36,464 nucleotides of DNA, from positions 1-36,464 of IMG/VR virus record IMGVR_UViG_3300003690_003736; one strand, given 5' to 3'. The stretch's first letter is position 1. Every line of letters starts with the position of its first letter. This document shows positions 1,119-26,898 of the stretch, piece after piece. The notes beneath the pieces were generated by a model, which worked only from the letters and a program-made list of their open reading frames with translations, was not told where the DNA came from and made no database searches. The position numbers and the translations under genes were made by a program. This DNA is from a virus.

Positions 1119-2585
1119 TCAGTATTTGATGCAGGGGAGCAGGTTGTAGTTGGCAACGCGGGTTTCTTCACCGGTGCCGGCGGCGGCGGTGTCAACGAAC
1201 GAGGTGTAGCCATTGCCGACAGCGCGGTTATTGGGCTCGTTGCCTTCAAGAATGTTGTCGCCCACCGGCATGCCGTGGGTGTGCTCCGGCATCTGGTCGG
1301 CCTGGAACTCGCCGGGGGCGCGCTCGATGTCGGCGGGATCCAGTGCGCGGATGTGGGCCTTGCGGGTAATCAGGTCCGGCACCCGGAAGGTGGTGGAGCC
1401 GTTGCCGGAGCTGAAGCAGCCCCGCCGATCGGTCGTGCCGTCGCCCAGGTATTCCGCATCGGTGACCACCGTCCCGTAGGTCTGGGCCCAGTACCAGAGG
1501 CGCGGGTAGTCGGCGCGCAGCAGCTCGTCGTCGGTGCAGACCAGGCGGCCAGGAACGGCGGAGGTCGCGGCAAACCAATCAACCGCGCCCACGCCCTCCA
1601 GGTCCTCTTCGGACCAGGCGGCCCGGTCGATCAGCTCCGGGCGGTTCTCGAACTGGGTGCCAACACCGCCGCGCTCCAGCTGGGCTTCGCCGGCGTCCAG
1701 GTTCGTGTTCGAGATGATGCCGCAGTCAAAGGTCACCACCACGGCGACGCCGGTGGACAGGTCGCCGGGGTTCTCGATGGGCAGGCTGAGCTGGGTTAGC
1801 GTGTTGCTGGCGATGGAAACCGGGTCGCTGGCCGCAATGGTGACCAGGTCGCCGTCGAAGTCGTCTGCAGTCAAGCATTTGTACAGCGTCAGGAAGACGT
1901 TCATCGGTGAGCCGCTGTTCTGGCGCACCTTCGCCTGGAACACCACGTCATCGCCGCTGATGTTGGCGCCGTCGCCGGAGGGCATGCGCCACATGATCTC
2001 CGCCTCGGATTCGCTGCTGTCGGTGGTGACGTTGTCCAGCCGGGCGCAGACGCCGGTGTCGCCGAAGTTGGCGTCCAGATGGCGGTGGAAGGTGCCGGCC
2101 GTGGCTGAGCCCACCTGAGCAAACACACCCGCCAGCTCACCCAGGGACCAGCTGTCACGCACCGGGAAGTCCACGCCGGAGGACGCATGGCGTCGACCCT
2201 TGCACCCGCCATTGGTGAGCAGGTTCTTGGGGCCCGCGTCGGTGCCCAGCGCGCTCACCGCCGACTCCAGATCCTCGATGCGGCTTTCCAGGTTCACGAT
2301 GTTGTTCGCGACACCGCCGCGCTCCCACTGGAACACCCCGTCGGCGTCATAGGCCAAGATTTTGTAATCCTGGTTCGGGGTCAGCTCGAAGTCCGGCAGC
2401 AGCCCGTAGGCATCGGCGTAGAGGGTGTTCCCGAGGGAGACCGACAGATCCGTGCCTGCGTCGTACACATTGGCCGGGGTGTCGGTGTCGTCCTCGAAGA
2501 ACTCCAGGCGGCCCCCGGGGAGCAGATTCCCCTTCTTGTCGCGGAGCAGGTACCCGTTAATCGGGTTTTCCATGCGTGAGAGCAT
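1119..2585 (-). CDS. Tail fibre protein with N-terminal virion-attachment domain and C-terminal collar-like domain
   Basis: Protein of 488 residues. The first ~75 residues follow the pattern of podovirus fibre head-binding domains (GYLLRDKKGNLLPGG, then FFEDDTDTPANVYDAGTD). A middle region (about 120-310) looks like a carbohydrate-binding beta-sandwich. The C-terminal ~120 residues resemble a phage tail-collar domain: DRRGCFSSGNGSTTFRVPDL followed by MPEHTHGMP. The start at MLSRM is preceded by GGAGACC at good spacing; an in-frame ATG four codons later (2573) is the alternative. A terminator lies just upstream on the same strand, so this gene and its partner may be expressed by read-through or their own promoter. 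Role inferred from domain order and position. Confidence 0.8.
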   Translation of the reverse strand: MLSRMENPINGYLLRDKKGNLLPGGRLEFFEDDTDTPANVYDAGTDLSVSLGNTLYADAYGLLPDFELTPNQDYKILAYDADGVFQWERGGVANNIVNLESRIEDLESAVSALGTDAGPKNLLTNGGCKGRRHASSGVDFPVRDSWSLGELAGVFAQVGSATAGTFHRHLDANFGDTGVCARLDNVTTDSSESEAEIMWRMPSGDGANISGDDVVFQAKVRQNSGSPMNVFLTLYKCLTADDFDGDLVTIAASDPVSIASNTLTQLSLPIENPGDLSTGVAVVVTFDCGIISNTNLDAGEAQLERGGVGTQFENRPELIDRAAWSEEDLEGVGAVDWFAATSAVPGRLVCTDDELLRADYPRLWYWAQTYGTVVTDAEYLGDGTTDRRGCFSSGNGSTTFRVPDLITRKAHIRALDPADIERAPGEFQADQMPEHTHGMPVGDNILEGNEPNNRAVGNGYTSFVDTAAAGTGEETRVANYNLLPCIKY

Positions 2586-2605
2586 TTTTCAGGTCTCCAG
2601 AATCG

Positions 2606-2630
2606 AAAAAGCCCGCCGGGTGGCGGGCTG
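2606..2630 (-). terminator. Rho-independent terminator upstream of the fibre genes
   Basis: On the minus strand a GCCCGCC / GGCGGGC stem with a 3-base loop is followed by TTTTT. It sits after the ejection-protein and moron region and before the fibre genes. With an antiterminated late operon it would be read through. Confidence 0.7.
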
Positions 2631-2687
2631 TGCTGGTCGTGTGGTCGTGCGGTGGGCTTTCGGCCCCGGGTCTGATTCGGTTACTAT

Positions 2688-2713
2688 TTGACCGCTAAAG
2701 GGAATCCGATAAC
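2688..2713 (+). promoter_or_regulatory. Weak candidate promoter for the moron cassette
   Basis: TTGACC at 2688-2693 is a good -35 match. Downstream AT-rich candidates (GATAAC at 2708, 14-base spacer; TCAAAT at 2714, 20-base spacer) are both off the ideal spacing. An independent promoter is expected because the cassette opposes the late operon, but this assignment is tentative. Confidence 0.3.
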
Positions 2714-2732
2714 TCAAATAAGGGGAACGACA

Positions 2733-3083
2733 ATGAGAATTTTCGCTTTTGCCTTCTTTCTGCTCGCCTGCTCATCGGCTCAAGCTGCCTGCTATGGCTC
2801 AGGTAACTTCAAGAGCTGCTACGACAACAGCGGCAACAGCTACACCGTTCAGAAATTCGGCAATCAAACGGTAACCAGCGGCTACAACAGCAACACCGGC
2901 AGCTCCTGGTCTCAGAACTCCAGCACCTACGGCAACACCACCTACCAGAATGGCACCAGCTCTACAGGGGACTCCTGGAACCAAACCATTCAGGACTTCG
3001 GCAACGGCAGCACCTACCGCTCTGGCTCAGACAGCCAGGGCAACAGCTTCTCTCAGTCGTGCAACTCGTTCGGGTGTTACTGA
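2733..3083 (+). CDS. Secreted Asn/Ser/Gly-rich repeat protein (lysogenic-conversion candidate)
   Basis: Protein of 116 residues starting at the ATG preceded by AGGGGAACGACA; a longer in-frame start at 2688 has no good ribosome site. Residues 1-18 are a signal peptide (hydrophobic core FAFAFFLLA, cleavage likely at SAQA-AC). The mature part is four imperfect ~23-residue repeats, each beginning GN and carrying a G-S-S/S-W-Q type core and ending in an aromatic, and it is rich in Asn, Ser, Thr, Tyr and Gly. This is reminiscent of curlin-like or other solenoid beta repeats, but no family is certain. Its GC content is clearly lower than that of neighbouring genes. It is on the strand opposite to the late genes and begins a three-gene cassette. 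Function unknown; exported surface or periplasmic protein inferred. Confidence 0.75.
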   Translation: MRIFAFAFFLLACSSAQAACYGSGNFKSCYDNSGNSYTVQKFGNQTVTSGYNSNTGSSWSQNSSTYGNTTYQNGTSSTGDSWNQTIQDFGNGSTYRSGSDSQGNSFSQSCNSFGCY

Positions 3084-3621: not shown

Positions 3622-5874
3622 CCAGCCGGTGAGGCCAGCCGCTGTGATCGCGTCGCGGTCGCGCTTGGGCAGCGCGCCGTAATACCGCCGCCACCCTATG
3701 CTGTCTCGCAGCGCCCTTTCCGACTGGCGAACCACGCCGCGGCCGGCGTCAGATACGATATTGGCGACATGCCGCTGAAACTCCGGCGCCGCAAGCAGCT
3801 CGCTCGCCGCGCTGTTCAGCCGCCCAGCCTGCCGGCCACCTGCTGACATCGCGCTCGACGCAGCGCCGGCGGCCGCGCCAGGGCGCCCGCCAACGATGCC
3901 GCCCACAATCGGCAGCGCCCCGGCAATCTTGCGCACGATGGACTCACTGAGCTGGAAGCCCTGGTCGGCCGCCATCAGCCGGCCCGTGGCCACCATGTCC
4001 TCGTTGGCGCGCTTAATGGCACTGACGGCTTTGCCTAGATTGTCCACATCCCGTCGGGTTTGCTGGTCCATCTGGCCGAACAGCGCCCGTTTAGCCTGCG
4101 GGTTGCTGTTCAGCTCGTTGTACCAGCGGTTGAAACCAGCAATATCAAGACGACCATCCATGTTCTTCCGGTTGATGATTTTGTCGTAAACCATGGATGT
4201 AACCGCCTGTCGGCGGCGCCCCTCGGGGATTGCGTTCACGGCGTCCTCAAACTCCTTCACGCGCCCCTTGGATAGGTTGCCCATCCGGGTGCCGAACATC
4301 GCCGAGAATGACTTATCCAGGTTCTTCCCGAGCAGCTTCTGTGCGGTCTCCTGTGCCGCCTTCTTAACCCCGGTCGCCTCCATGGCAGCGGCATAATCCT
4401 CACCGATACCAATCTGGTCGGCGGCCTGGCGCTGCGTTTCTGATACAGTGCGGGCGTAATCGTCCAGCTCATAGCTGGCGGCATCACCAAAGCCGCCTTT
4501 GCCGCCCCGGGCGGCGTTCAGCTCCTTGCGCAGCCCCGTCAGGGCGGCCCAGGTCTTCGGTTTCGCCGTGTATTCAACCTGCCCGGTCTCACTGGTTCGC
4601 CGGTCAAGGAATCGCGGCATCAGGCGACGCTCAAAGGTGGACAGCTCTCGCGGATCTCCGCCCACTTCGCCCAGCCGGCTCAAAAGCTTGTCGGCGATAG
4701 GGGTCACATCCACCGGCGTGGCGGGCGCCACCGCCTCATCCACGCGGCCGTACAGGTCCTGCTCCACTTGGCGCGCACGGGCGATGTCTCCCTGCAGGTC
4801 GTCGGCCACGTTGATGTTCAGGGCGGCCGTATCTTCTGCGTCGGCCTGGCGGGACAGATCGTCCGCCTTCGCCGACAGGTCCTGGAGAAACTGACGGTAT
4901 CGAATCGCCAGCGGTGAGGCCGGGACAGATCGGGCCGTGCCGGCCAACTGCCGGAACGCCTGATTGCCAGAAAGAACCTCCGGCGGCACCGATTCGGGCG
5001 CAACGCCCAGCTCCTGAAATGACCGGGTCAGGTCAGGCTGTGGGCGCACCTCTTCAGCCACCGCCCGGGTTGCTCTCCGGCGCGCACCGCCGCCCAGAAT
5101 GCGGTCATTGCTGGCAGCCTCGACGCCGGCGGCAAGATCCTCAATACCGGCCGACGCCGGCGGCGCATCTGCACCACGGGCAGCCTGTGACCCGCGCACC
5201 GCCCGGGTGGCGGGCACCAGGGACGCAATGGCGTCAGGCATGGTGCTGCCGGCGGCATAAGCCATTGCCGCGGCTTTCGAGTTCGGGTCAGCACCGGCCG
5301 CTCGGGCAAGCTCGGCGCCCCCGGCGCCCATGAGTCCTTGCAGGGCCTCCCATCCACGGCCTGCCAGCTCCATGTTGCGGAGCGCCGCCTGCGCACCATT
5401 CATGCGCGGTTCGTATGACATGGCTCCGGCGATCCTCTCGACGTTCTCCGCGCCCTTCTCGGCGCCATCGGTGGCCGCCCCGTAGATGCCGCCGTAACCG
5501 CCAGCCACTTGGCCGGCGAGGCCGCCGCCAAGGGTCGCCAAGGCCTCGATGGCGGTGGCGGGTGGCGAGTTTTCGAGGAACCGCCGGAAGCCTTCGCCGA
5601 CGCTATCGGCGGACCCCACATCCATGGCCATATCAATGCCAGGGATGTATTTGCGGAGGGTGTCGGCGGCGGCCCCTAGCAATCCCTGGTCCTGCTCGGT
5701 AGCGGCGGTCGGCGGCCGGTCCTGCGCGCCGCCGGCGGCGGCCTGGGGCTGGCTGCCCTGCGGCGGGGCGGCCTGCATGCCCTGCTCCGCCTTCCGGATT
5801 GCGCTCTTGATCGCCTCCGGCGGGGTGCCGTCCGGGAACTCCAGCTCACCGAGGGTCGGGTGCTCCACGATCAT
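3556..5874 (-). CDS. Large internal virion/DNA ejection protein
   Basis: Protein of 772 residues. The N-terminus (HPTLGELEFPDGTPPEAIKS) carries the short motif commonly seen at the start of phage internal virion proteins, followed by a Gln/Ala/Pro-rich linker. The rest is Ala- and Arg-rich with long helical stretches, and there is a Gly/Ala-rich hydrophobic region near 95-140 and again near 645-680. It is the third and largest of three consecutive ejection-type genes, in the position of the P22 gp7-gp20-gp16 block, and overlaps the previous gene by four bases (ATGA). Role inferred from position, size and composition; no sequence-level family is certain. Its 3' end overlaps the opposing moron gene. 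Confidence 0.65.
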   Translation of the reverse strand: MIVEHPTLGELEFPDGTPPEAIKSAIRKAEQGMQAAPPQGSQPQAAAGGAQDRPPTAATEQDQGLLGAAADTLRKYIPGIDMAMDVGSADSVGEGFRRFLENSPPATAIEALATLGGGLAGQVAGGYGGIYGAATDGAEKGAENVERIAGAMSYEPRMNGAQAALRNMELAGRGWEALQGLMGAGGAELARAAGADPNSKAAAMAYAAGSTMPDAIASLVPATRAVRGSQAARGADAPPASAGIEDLAAGVEAASNDRILGGGARRRATRAVAEEVRPQPDLTRSFQELGVAPESVPPEVLSGNQAFRQLAGTARSVPASPLAIRYRQFLQDLSAKADDLSRQADAEDTAALNINVADDLQGDIARARQVEQDLYGRVDEAVAPATPVDVTPIADKLLSRLGEVGGDPRELSTFERRLMPRFLDRRTSETGQVEYTAKPKTWAALTGLRKELNAARGGKGGFGDAASYELDDYARTVSETQRQAADQIGIGEDYAAAMEATGVKKAAQETAQKLLGKNLDKSFSAMFGTRMGNLSKGRVKEFEDAVNAIPEGRRRQAVTSMVYDKIINRKNMDGRLDIAGFNRWYNELNSNPQAKRALFGQMDQQTRRDVDNLGKAVSAIKRANEDMVATGRLMAADQGFQLSESIVRKIAGALPIVGGIVGGRPGAAAGAASSAMSAGGRQAGRLNSAASELLAAPEFQRHVANIVSDAGRGVVRQSERALRDSIGWRRYYGALPKRDRDAITAAGLTGWLNDAGESAESGQAGQEQAAGE

Positions 5875-16474: not shown

Positions 16475-16723
16475 TTACTCAGCCGGCGCATTGGGTTCGG
16501 ATGTACTCTTGGAGTCCGAGGATTTGCGTTGTGGCGGTGCTGATTCGCTCTCGGAGACGCCAATAATCCCGTTCAGCGGCGTCAGTAAGTCTGGGGCCTC
16601 CTGCATCGTCCACGCCGGCGGAGCCGGGGGCGGAGGGCACTCCGGGGCACTCTGCCTGGAGGCGCAGCCGGCGACGGCCAGCAGCGACATCATCAGAAAG
16701 GCGATCGATCTCAGCCTGCGCAT
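16475..16723 (-). CDS. Rz1: Outer-membrane spanin lipoprotein Rz1, nested in Rz
   Basis: Protein of 82 residues encoded in an alternative frame within Rz. N-terminal signal LRSIAFLMMSLLAVAGC ends in a lipobox with the acylated Cys at position 20. The mature part begins with a Pro-rich stretch (ECPPPPAPPAW), typical for Rz1. The embedded arrangement is the same as lambda Rz/Rz1. It extends slightly beyond the Rz stop. Confidence 0.88.
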   Translation of the reverse strand: MRRLRSIAFLMMSLLAVAGCASRQSAPECPPPPAPPAWTMQEAPDLLTPLNGIIGVSESESAPPQRKSSDSKSTSEPNAPAE

Positions 16724-16964
16724 TGCTCAGCTCCTCGGTATAGCGGGCGTCCAGGGCCTCGACCTCAGCCTGGCGCTCCAGGGTGCGAGCCTGGGCGGCC
16801 TTGATCTTCTGCGCGGCGCTTTCGGCCAGCTCCTGGCGGTATTGGGCGATGCCCTCGCCGATCCGCCAGCCGTTGACCAGCCATCCGCCGGCAAAAGCGG
16901 CACCCAGCGCCACCAGCAAGGCGAGCGCCGGCGCCAGTTTCTTCAGCAGGGGGAGCCAGCTCAT
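16479..16964 (-). CDS. Rz: Inner-membrane spanin Rz
   Basis: Protein of 161 residues: one N-terminal transmembrane helix (about 8-32, LKKLAPALALLVALGAAFAG), then a periplasmic coiled coil (about 38-100) rich in Ala, Glu and Gln. This is the i-spanin design. It overlaps the holin gene by four bases (ATGA). The o-spanin Rz1 is encoded inside it in another frame and ends four bases beyond its stop. Together they fuse inner and outer membrane in the last step of lysis. Confidence 0.88.
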   Translation of the reverse strand: MSWLPLLKKLAPALALLVALGAAFAGGWLVNGWRIGEGIAQYRQELAESAAQKIKAAQARTLERQAEVEALDARYTEELSNAQAEIDRLSDDVAAGRRRLRLQAECPGVPSAPGSAGVDDAGGPRLTDAAERDYWRLRERISTATTQILGLQEYIRTQCAG

Positions 16965-17173
16965 TCCGGCTTATCCCGCTGCCACTGCCAGAACTTCACC
17001 ACCAGGGGCGGCAGCGCGAACAGGGTGGCGAACGCCGCGGCGGTGCCCGTCGGGATGTCCGGTGGAGCGAAGAACACCTTGATCACCACCAGGGTGGTCA
17101 GGGTCAGCCCCCACAGCGCCAGCAGAACCTTTGCCCAGCCGTTGCGCGCTATGAAGGCTCGGAAATCGCTCAT
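16961..17173 (-). CDS. Holin, two transmembrane helices
   Basis: Protein of 70 residues with two hydrophobic helices (about 14-35, WAKVLLALWGLTLTTLVVI, and 43-61, TAAAFATLFALPPLVVKFW), a short Pro-containing turn and a charged C-terminus (QWQRDKPE). It sits between endolysin and Rz with four-base overlaps on both sides (ATGA), the classic lysis-cassette position. Holin by context and topology. Confidence 0.75.
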   Translation of the reverse strand: MSDFRAFIARNGWAKVLLALWGLTLTTLVVIKVFFAPPDIPTGTAAAFATLFALPPLVVKFWQWQRDKPE

Positions 17174-17577
17174 ACCAGCTCGAAATGCACCAGATCATCG
17201 AAATTGTTGTCGTCGACCTGGGTGTCGCGGTCCCAGTCGCCGCCCCACCGCAGGCCGTGGGTCATCCGGCCTTCAGCCTTGAGCCGTGCGGCCGTGCCCA
17301 TCACGAAGCCAGCGAAATAGTGAAAGCGCTCCCGGTCCTGCCAGTTGATGGGATACGGCGCCACATCAACCGACTCGCTGGGCTCGCTGTTGTGCCGGCT
17401 GTTTGGCCAGCGGACCTGGCTCTTGCCCTGCTCCACCATGCGGTTCTGCGTCACGCGGTCGCGGTGACCGGTGATGATGGTGCAGTCGAAGTCTTTCACG
17501 ACCTCAGCCATCAGCACTTGCAGGTCGGCGTGGCAGGTCGCCAGACGATGTTTGCTGCGTTCGCTGAATTGGGGCAT
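17170..17577 (-). CDS. Endolysin, M15-type L-alanyl-D-glutamate peptidase
   Basis: Protein of 135 residues from the ATG at 17577; the frame is open to 17694 but that part overlaps two terminators. The M15 zinc-peptidase pattern is visible: SRHN...SESVDVAPYP with zinc ligands His62 and Asp71, and FDDLVHFEL with His131 near the C-terminus. Such enzymes (T5 endolysin type) cleave the peptide stem of peptidoglycan. No signal peptide or SAR helix, so release depends on the adjacent holin. First gene of the late operon. Confidence 0.9.
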   Translation of the reverse strand: MPQFSERSKHRLATCHADLQVLMAEVVKDFDCTIITGHRDRVTQNRMVEQGKSQVRWPNSRHNSEPSESVDVAPYPINWQDRERFHYFAGFVMGTAARLKAEGRMTHGLRWGGDWDRDTQVDDNNFDDLVHFELV

Positions 17578-17592: not shown

Positions 17593-17616
17593 TAAAAAAG
17601 CCCGCTCAAGGCGGGC
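17593..17616 (-). terminator. Late-leader terminator 2
   Basis: On the minus strand GCCCGC - CTTGA - GCGGGC followed by TTTTTTAAT, between the late promoter and the endolysin start. Confidence 0.85.
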
Positions 17617-17656
17617 CGAAGGGTTCACCGTTTGCCGGTGGTTGGGGGTCCAGAAC

Positions 17657-17679
17657 GCAAAAAGCCCCAGCGCGGGGCT
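17657..17679 (-). terminator. Late-leader terminator 1
   Basis: On the minus strand AGCCCC - GCGCT - GGGGCT followed by TTTTTG, starting about 25 bases downstream of the predicted late transcript start. In the position of lambda tR'. Confidence 0.85.
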
Positions 17680-17711
17680 GAGGCTTAGAGGCAATTCTCG
17701 AATATGGCTCT

Positions 17712-17740
17712 TTTATACCCGTGGACTGCCGGGCAGTCAA
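17712..17740 (-). promoter_or_regulatory. Late promoter (PR'-like) with palindromic element in its spacer
   Basis: On the minus strand TTGACT (17740-17735), a 17-base spacer and TATAAA (17717-17712): a near-consensus sigma-70 promoter. A perfect inverted repeat GACTGCC-G-GGCAGTC covers 17724-17738, overlapping the -35 box and spacer. This is where Q-binding elements lie in lambda-type late promoters. Two terminators follow within 120 bases. It would drive lysis, packaging and structural genes. Confidence 0.8.
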
Positions 17741-17769
17741 CACCCGGCCAGTGGATTTTTGGTCACTGG

Positions 17770-18165
17770 TCAGGCGGCCATGGATAGCATCGCCGCCACC
17801 ATGTTGATGCCAATCTCCAGGCGCTTCACGGCGGTATCCCGATTGATCTTCAGGCGCCGCGCCAGCTCGCTCTTGCTGACGCACCGGTATTCGTCCGACG
17901 AGTCACCGTAGTAGGTCTTGAGCGTCTGGAACACCGGCTGATTGTTCACCCGGATGTGGTGCATGATGTGGGAGTCGAACGCCTCCAGGTCGCGGTCCTC
18001 CCAGGCTTGGACCGGGTAACCACTATCGTCCACGATCTGGCCCACCATGCGGTCAATCATGGGCCCCATCCAGCTTATCGCATCCTTGGGGCCCGGCCGC
18101 TGCCGGCGGCTCCAGATGCCCCATTGCTCCAATGCGAATTCCGCTTCCGCGTTGATGTACGCCAT
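17770..18165 (-). CDS. Q-like late antitermination protein
   Basis: Protein of 131 residues. The N-terminal ALEQWGIWSRRQ motif and the C-terminal helix-turn-helix KSELARRLKINRDTAVKRLEIG match the Phage_antitermQ pattern (phage 82/21-type Q). It is the last gene of the early PR operon and directly precedes the late promoter and the two leader terminators, as Q does in lambdoid phages. It would bind the spacer element and load on RNA polymerase paused near the promoter to read through terminators. Family call by pattern plus context. Confidence 0.75.
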   Translation of the reverse strand: MAYINAEAEFALEQWGIWSRRQRPGPKDAISWMGPMIDRMVGQIVDDSGYPVQAWEDRDLEAFDSHIMHHIRVNNQPVFQTLKTYYGDSSDEYRCVSKSELARRLKINRDTAVKRLEIGINMVAAMLSMAA

Positions 18166-18166
18166 A

Positions 18167-18367
18167 TCACCGCCCTCTCGCCTCGAAAATGCCCTGACAG
18201 TCCACGCAGCGGGTGACCCCGCCCAGTGCCCGCCGCCGCTCCGGTATCTGGTCCTCGCACTCCACGCAATGGGTCTCGGACGGGGTGGCGGGTCCGCCGC
18301 GTCCGGCCAGCGCTTGCGCCATCCGTTCCTCGATCAGCTCGCCTGCCAAGTCTGCTGCGTTAGCCAT
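18167..18367 (-). CDS. DksA/TraR-type zinc-finger protein
   Basis: Protein of 66 residues with a helical N-terminus (AADLAGELIEERMAQALA) and a C4 zinc finger, Cys34-x2-Cys37 and Cys54-x2-Cys57 (THCVECEDQIPERRRALGG, TRCVDCQGIFEARGR). This is the standard phage TraR/DksA-like design, about the size of F-plasmid TraR (73). Such proteins bind the RNA polymerase secondary channel and mimic ppGpp-DksA control. It is separated from the Q-like gene by one base. GGGAGAGG ribosome site. Confidence 0.9.
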   Translation of the reverse strand: MANAADLAGELIEERMAQALAGRGGPATPSETHCVECEDQIPERRRALGGVTRCVDCQGIFEARGR

Positions 18368-26132: not shown

Positions 26133-26162
26133 ATTAAGGCATACCTTAATGATAACCGTCAA
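26133..26162 (-). promoter_or_regulatory. Promoter PR (cro, CII-like and replication operon)
   Basis: On the minus strand TTGACG (26162-26157), 18-base spacer, CTTAAT (26138-26133). The -10 box lies in the operator at 26134-26149, so repressor binding would block it directly. Confidence 0.6.
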
Positions 26163-26197
26163 GCAGAATGAAGGCATGCCTTTAAGGTCTGCCTGTA
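26134..26197. promoter_or_regulatory. OR-like operator array between cro and cI
   Basis: Three copies of the operator: TTAAGGCATACCTTAA (26134-26149, perfect 6-base arms), TGAAGGCATGCCTTTA (26169-26184, contains the perfect palindrome AAGGCATGCCTT) and a degenerate TTAAGGTCTGCCTGTA (26182-26197). The first covers the PR -10; the other two precede the cI start. The same motif recurs downstream of cI. Confidence 0.85.
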
Positions 26198-26201
26198 CTA
26201 T
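26196..26201 (+). promoter_or_regulatory. Candidate PRM -10 giving a leaderless cI mRNA
   Basis: TACTAT, eight bases before the cI ATG and next to the degenerate operator. No clear -35 element. A start here would place the 5' end at or very near the ATG; no ribosome site exists upstream of the ATG. Confidence 0.4.
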
Positions 26202-26208
26202 TCCGGCC

Positions 26209-26898
26209 ATGAATGAATATGCAGATCGGGTGCGGCAACTGCTGGTTGCCAGGGGCGTGACGGATCGCGAAATGAAAAGCGAGCTGGCGGACGCCTGCGG
26301 CATCAAATACCAGTCGGTAAAGGGCTGGTTTGACGGCACCAGCAAAAGCATCACTGCCGTGAACCTCGCCAAGATCGCTCGGCGATGGAACGCCAACCTG
26401 GACTGGCTGATTACCGGTCAGGGGCAGATGCTTGGTGCCGCCCACCATATTGCCGAGCCCCAGGCGCCCTATGGCGACGACGTAAGCCCTGGCCCTTCTG
26501 TATCTGGCCAAATACCCATTATCAGCTACGTCCAGGCCGGCGAGTTCTGCGAAGCGGAAGATCCGTTCGAGCCGGGCATGGCTGACGAATGGTTGCCGTT
26601 CCGGCCGCCCGGCGCCGGCCCGCGCACCTATGCTCTGCGCGTCGATGGCGAAAGCAACTCACCACGAATCCGTAATGGCGAAATCGTCATTGTCGACCCT
26701 GACCGGACGCCGGATAGCGGCAAGTTCGTGGTGGCCAAGCGCCACAGCGACGCGAAGGTCACGCTGAAGCAGATCCAGTACAACGAAGGGGAGCCGTTCT
26801 TGAAGCCCGGCAACCCGGACTGGCCGGAGCCAATCATCAAGATAGACGGCGACTGGAGCGTCTGCGGCGTGGTGGTCGGCAAGTACGACCCGATGTAG
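26209..26898 (+). CDS. cI: CI-type repressor with LexA-like autoproteolysis domain
   Basis: Protein of 229 residues from MNEYADR (an earlier in-frame ATG at 26149 lies inside the operators). N-terminal helix-turn-helix (about 20-45: EMKSELADACGIKYQSVKGWF, then LAKIARRWNANLDWLITG). C-terminal peptidase S24 domain: cleavage site Ala110-Gly111 in SYVQAGEF, catalytic Ser149 in VDGESNSP, general-base Lys187 in VTLKQIQ. The RecA-stimulated self-cleavage therefore looks intact, so the prophage should be inducible by DNA damage. Flanked by operator arrays on both sides. Confidence 0.95.
   Translation: MNEYADRVRQLLVARGVTDREMKSELADACGIKYQSVKGWFDGTSKSITAVNLAKIARRWNANLDWLITGQGQMLGAAHHIAEPQAPYGDDVSPGPSVSGQIPIISYVQAGEFCEAEDPFEPGMADEWLPFRPPGAGPRTYALRVDGESNSPRIRNGEIVIVDPDRTPDSGKFVVAKRHSDAKVTLKQIQYNEGEPFLKPGNPDWPEPIIKIDGDWSVCGVVVGKYDPM

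Follow-up and report, generated by a model that had tools for sequence, protein, structure and literature searches.

The sites read by Q proteins vary widely, and the number of protomers that load, their orientation and the compatibility of loading with the departure of sigma from the -35 element are not settled. The present locus comes from a stretch of viral DNA of 36,464 nt (IMG/VR record IMGVR_UViG_3300003690_003736, analyzed over its full length and referred to below as the window), in which a perfect inverted repeat lies inside the promoter that follows a Q-like gene on the minus strand. An earlier note, made from the letters alone, had read this locus as Q-type late control, and that reading proved largely right: the locus probably serves a lambdoid temperate phage as its late-gene switch, working by Q-type antitermination with an inverted repeat as the loading site.

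Gene order and the Q-family protein

Read along the minus strand, the genes and signals come in the order VRR-NUC nuclease, DksA-like zinc-finger protein, Q, promoter, two terminators, endolysin, small membrane protein and Rz. The Q gene is the end of the early/nin region and stands directly 5' of the late promoter and the lysis genes, which is the placement of the lambda type. The wider gene set that accompanies the Q locus comprises an integrase, the S24 repressor, DnaB, NinB, VRR_NUC, the DksA-like protein, Q, the promoter, endolysin, Rz and terminase, and the nearest named phage is CBW1004C-Prop1. The genes that matter here are the following.

17770..18165, minus strand: gene for the Q-type antiterminator, 131 aa
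17170..17577, minus strand: endolysin gene, the first late gene, with its ATG at 17577 (phrog_465, E 5.9e-32)
16479..17173, minus strand: small membrane protein in a holin-like place, and Rz (Phage_lysis, E 2.8e-36; list of open reading frames), with an Rz1-like frame nested in this region
18167..18367, minus strand: DksA/TraR-type zinc-finger protein just 5' of Q (zf-dskA_traR, E 3e-7; phrog_54, E 8.8e-18)
26149-26895: CI-like S24 repressor gene

Judged by profile comparison, the 131-aa protein is a Q-family antiterminator of the phrog_79/QuuD kind, which upholds the earlier assignment of the gene directly upstream of the promoter as Q-like. It matches PHROG 79 (antitermination protein Q-like) with E 7.7e-7, as do all nine aligned members of its family (9/9; best E 9.2e-10), and QuuD of E. 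coli is itself a strong phrog_79 member. When the profile of the window family was aligned with a QuuD-type profile (hhalign), 110 columns were covered with the helix-turn-helix in register (93.8%, E 1.7e-7), so that the Q proteins of DLP12 in E. coli and of related phages belong to the same family as the window Q over this length. The earlier note had proposed a search against Phage_antitermQ, and this check fell short: PF06530 aligns over residues 11-130 of the window protein but scores 15 bits, below the curated cut-off of 26, while 8/9 aligned family members match it with E-values of 0.1 or less, the best being 2e-4. Neither the annotated phages and plasmids searched nor sequence searches of the PDB returned a close or credible relative, respectively.

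For the fold search, two AlphaFold2 models were used (mean pLDDT 69.6 and 74.5), and 21Q ranked first in the PDB for both (Foldseek probability 0.93-0.98, TM about 0.5-0.6), followed by sigma region 4 domains. The E-values of 0.13-0.4 are modest, hence the models support a 21Q-like fold but do not prove it; at the level of profiles, the alignment with 21Q-type proteins covers the N-terminal part only. The helix-turn-helix comprises residues S97-G119 (SKSELARRLKINRDTAVKRLEIG) of the protein encoded at 17770..18165 on the minus strand, and within it S97-K98 and T111-A112-x-K114-R115 are invariant in the window family. In 21Q, DNA is contacted by S93, K94 and by A124, T125, R127 and R128 (PMC6606751); in our own reading of the two proteins, as opposed to a computed alignment, the invariant residues look like the counterparts of these contacts.

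The zinc-finger gene at 18167-18367 also adjoins other Q alleles in two further contigs (L104, L111). Its place beside Q raises the question of whether a factor of the polymerase secondary channel is linked to the paused, Q-loading complex.

The late promoter, its inverted repeat and the leader

The promoter reads, from 17740 on the minus strand, 5'-TTGACTGCCCGGCAGTCCACGGGTATAAAA-3'. Positions are numbered with the -10 hexamer set at -12..-7, which places the putative start at 17705. All features below lie on the minus strand.

17735..17740, minus strand: -35 element TTGACT, kept in relatives
17712..17717, minus strand: -10 element TATAAA after a 17-bp spacer, TAYAAA in relatives
17724..17738, minus strand: inverted repeat GACTGCC-C-GGCAGTC, the putative Q binding element
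17724..17730, minus strand: right half-site GGCAGTC, -25..-19
17732..17738, minus strand: left half-site GACTGCC, -33..-27, overlapping the -35 element
17716..17719, minus strand: GGTA, -14..-11, invariant in relatives with a window-type promoter
17701..17706, minus strand: CATATT, -1..+5, candidate sigma-dependent pause element
17662..17686, minus strand: intrinsic terminator 1 (+20..+44), U-tailed hairpin, -16.3 kcal/mol
17599..17617, minus strand: intrinsic terminator 2 (+89..+107), U-tailed hairpin, -13.3 kcal/mol

The promoter TTGACT-N17-TATAAA is thus where the earlier note had described it (17740-17712), and a generic promoter scan missed it only because TATAAA ends in A. The inverted repeat across the -35 element and the spacer is likewise perfect (17738-17724; 7+1+7, from -33 to -19, centre -26), although the central G given for it earlier is the plus-strand form, and the minus strand reads C. 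For the window promoter taken by itself, 1% of spacer shuffles yield a perfect dyad of seven pairs at one centre or another. The palindrome is single-copy in the window, in which no further copy with up to two mismatches was found. Between the Q stop codon and the -35 element, CCAGTG-N10-CACTGG forms a further inverted repeat, accompanied by an A-tract (17748-17769, minus strand); L020-L023 share the A-tract and CCACTG but not the left arm, and the repeat may be an UP-like element.

Around the putative start, every ortholog promoter has the motif YAnnnT at -1..+5 (CATATT, TATGGT, CAGTAT, CAGATT, TAACGT), and its A and T are invariant across five otherwise different leader sequences. Sigma region 2 depends above all on these two bases. 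The two U-tailed hairpins described earlier before the endolysin gene were recovered at 17686-17662 and 17617-17599, and both are conserved in the relatives, so that the leader has the terminators of a lambda-type late operon.

Conservation of the dyad and its co-variation with Q

Scans yielded 22 relatives (numbered here with the prefix L), 21 of them from public viral contigs and the other from a genome contig. As examined, these 22 retain the layout of Q, promoter and terminators, with exceptions in detail in L017 and L020. A window-type promoter stands directly 3' of Q in L001-L016, L019 and L021-L023; L020 has an extra small gene between Q and promoter, and in L017 an interval of other DNA, about 390 bp long (4382-4790), separates Q from a late promoter that is itself altered, with a spacer of 18 bp and a dyad cut to GCC-G-GGC. 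The combination noted earlier, a dyad between -35 and -10 followed by tandem leader terminators, is conserved in relatives. The sole relative from a genome collection, L019 (JAUTCS010000085.1), comes from a MAG named Verrucomicrobiota; its contig is very similar to those of the phages in the group and may be misbinned. The pattern TTGACNGN7GTN5GGTAYAAAA, in which the core is free, occurs in 24 public contigs, 20 of which carry the window Q family just upstream, while in the other four a Q-family gene upstream was not found. When the spacing was left free, TTGACTGN5CAGT...TAYAAAA produced many chance matches in coding DNA, but those with proper spacing lie nearly all 3' of the window Q family. 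Among annotated phages, the leader DNA of the window has no counterpart.

The dyad takes the form GACTGCC-C-GGCAGTC in the window and L005, GACTGCC-C-GGCAGTT in L019, GACTGTT-C-AACGGTC in L020-L023 and GACTGAC-T-AACAGTC in L013. In L020-L023, the inner pairs CC/GG are thereby swapped jointly for TT/AA, while two inner pairs are lost in L011-L016. Summed over five promoter alleles, the centre at -26 retains 31 of 35 pairs, compared to 16 at most for any other centre. When the columns of the spacer were shuffled with the -35 element fixed, 31 pairs at any centre were reached about once in 100,000 shuffles, a figure that preserves the kinship of the alleles within columns and refers to five alleles of one family, not to five independent events. 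A chance origin of the dyad was rejected on this basis.

The core of the site also appears to follow the protein. Where the recognition helix starts with NRDTAV, GG is found at -25/-24 in a CCCGG core (window, L004, L005, L019), and where it starts with SRVTAI or SRNTAI, AA is found there in an ACTAA or TTCAA core (L011, L013, L020/L022), so that helix class and site core match in all seven distinct alleles (7/7). Helix and core switch within two separate close pairs, namely L005/L011, whose N-terminal parts are 84% identical, and L019/L022, with 88% identity; the promoters of L005 and L013 have nearly identical flanks, and their differences are concentrated in the core. A plain permutation test over the seven alleles gives 1/35, hence the co-variation is suggestive, but not strong alone. 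The codons for Ser and other helix residues differ between L011 and L013, which makes the recent transfer of one tract no simple explanation, and as helix and site are about 130 bp apart, the two could move jointly by recombination (linked exchange).

Outside this group, a different Q goes with a different spacer sequence in phages that share the endolysin and the leader terminator (L104/L111, L105). In L108 and L110, around 2300-3001, the same endolysin is found, while Q is replaced by an unrelated protein of about 197 aa, possibly another class of late regulator; a comparable promoter was not found in these two contigs. GIY-YIG-like genes lie between Q and endolysin in L093 (15063-15524) and L105 (about 317-840), with differing placement relative to the promoter.

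Proposed loading geometry, rival readings and known systems

The gene family, the promoter, the dyad with its conservation, the terminators and the co-variation of helix and core, all of them read from sequence, would fit the following course of events. The late promoter directly 3' of the Q gene would start constitutively, and RNA polymerase with sigma still bound would pause at the -10-like element just 3' of the start. Q would bind the spacer element by means of its C-terminal helix-turn-helix, with the engaging protomer held by the right half-site GGCAGTC (-25..-19), and its N-terminal part would be inserted as a nozzle at the RNA exit channel. Modified in this way, the polymerase would pass the two leader terminators and go on to transcribe the endolysin, Rz and head genes. 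As the element is an inverted repeat, a second protomer would most likely sit head-to-head on the left half-site, which would become free after sigma region 4 leaves the -35 element.

The role of the right half-site is well supported by the sequence comparisons, as it takes the place that the engaging protomer has in both solved systems and as its core co-varies with the recognition helix. In 21Q, subsite 1 at -25..-20 has a critical C at -21 (PMC6606751), and AlpA of Pseudomonas aeruginosa needs GGGACG at -25..-20 within the motif GGGACGN5GGTA (PMC7969949), to which it binds as a single molecule (PMC9371919). For the left half-site, support comes from symmetry and from the one in-step change in L020-L023 (GTT-C-AAC); since this arm lies partly within the -35 element, a role in Q binding is not separable from the -35 role, and its conservation has another possible cause. 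That a 21Q-like pair loads head-to-head, with the second protomer replacing sigma region 4 upstream, whereas it lies downstream in 21Q and is absent in AlpA, is put forward tentatively, as a proposal that falls somewhat short of an even chance.

The most serious rival, possible though doubtful, is that a single Q protomer uses the right half-site (together with GGTA) only, as AlpA does, and that the left arm is a plain -35 element, its match to the right arm being incidental or a consequence of sigma-region-4-like recognition by the helix-turn-helix of Q. The spacing of GGCAGT-N5-GGTA is that of the AlpA motif, the fold of Q resembles sigma region 4, itself a reader of TTGAC, and L011-L016 do without the inner dyad pairs, all of which speak for a single protomer; yet the dyad extends outside the -35 hexamer, its inner pairs change together in L020-L023, and the observed score was so rarely matched by shuffles in which the -35 element was fixed. 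That a degenerate 21Q-like direct repeat (-27..-20 and -19..-12) makes up the element, with the dyad as a by-product, is quite improbable. At the exact 21Q geometry, 20/40 positions match over the five alleles (P 0.02 in column shuffles), but over all geometries P is 0.32, compared to 5e-5 in three 21Q-type control promoters, which have no dyad (controls from phage 21, ST64T and other phages, with relatives in annotated Stx-carrying phages set aside). The spacer of the window family thus holds no direct-repeat element of period 8 above shuffles, its dyad signal is far stronger, and this rival was rejected; in geometry, the window family is distinct from the 21Q type.

Repressor operators typically lie between -35 and -10 and have perfect symmetry. 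The palindrome resembles them in both respects, and a CI-like S24 repressor is encoded in the window, so that it could be the operator of this repressor or of another dimeric regulator of the late promoter that is unrelated to Q. However, it has no second copy in the window, its core tracks the recognition helix of Q, and in phages with a different Q the spacer differs too; we rejected this reading, the least probable of those weighed.

Among the closest known systems is phage 21 (OL657228.1; PMC6606751), which shares the Q gene directly 5' of the late promoter, the leader terminator, a spacer element with an upstream subsite at -25..-20, the lysis genes further on and the best fold match, and whose -10-like pause element has a candidate counterpart in the window. 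The 21Q site, in contrast, consists of direct repeats, two in number and 8 bp apart, whose second protomer lies downstream, while in the window the symmetry is inverted, with its centre at -26 and its left arm extending into the -35 element, and the two proteins are similar at profile level only. AlpA shares the leader terminator and, if the candidate element acts as such, the pause, and GGCAGT-N5-GGTA of the window lies at the same coordinates as its motif, with GGTA at -14..-11 in both; it differs in having one half-site and one protomer, and the searches run detected no similarity to the window Q in sequence (no PDB sequence match) and no clear match in fold (probability 0.08-0.13). Among five enterobacterial QuuD-type examples inspected, no clear inverted-repeat promoter of the window type was seen 3' of Q.

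The earlier note had called an inverted repeat unusual beside the direct repeats of Q21, and it is indeed uncommon, but not unprecedented: GafZ of Caulobacter needs a near-perfect palindrome (ZBE) between -10 and -35 for antiterminator action, and mutation of its right half abolishes binding and function (PMC11150451). GafZ acts with GafY on a gene transfer agent and is reported to lack similarity to known antiterminators (PMC11150451). The present locus would place inverted-repeat antiterminator sites in phages proper as well. A search of the open literature returned no phage Q with such a site. Natural pairs of phages with nearly the same promoter, but with different recognition helices and 5-bp cores, make it possible to test directly by swaps both site specificity and whether two half-sites are needed. 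In CBW1004C-Prop1 (MZ188970.1), which has head and lysis genes related to those of the window, a diverged Q gene is followed by TTGACA-GTTCGAACCGGAATCGG-TAGAAA with GTTCGAAC centred at -25.5; both the Q sequence and the site differ from those of the window, and the dyad is just 4+4.
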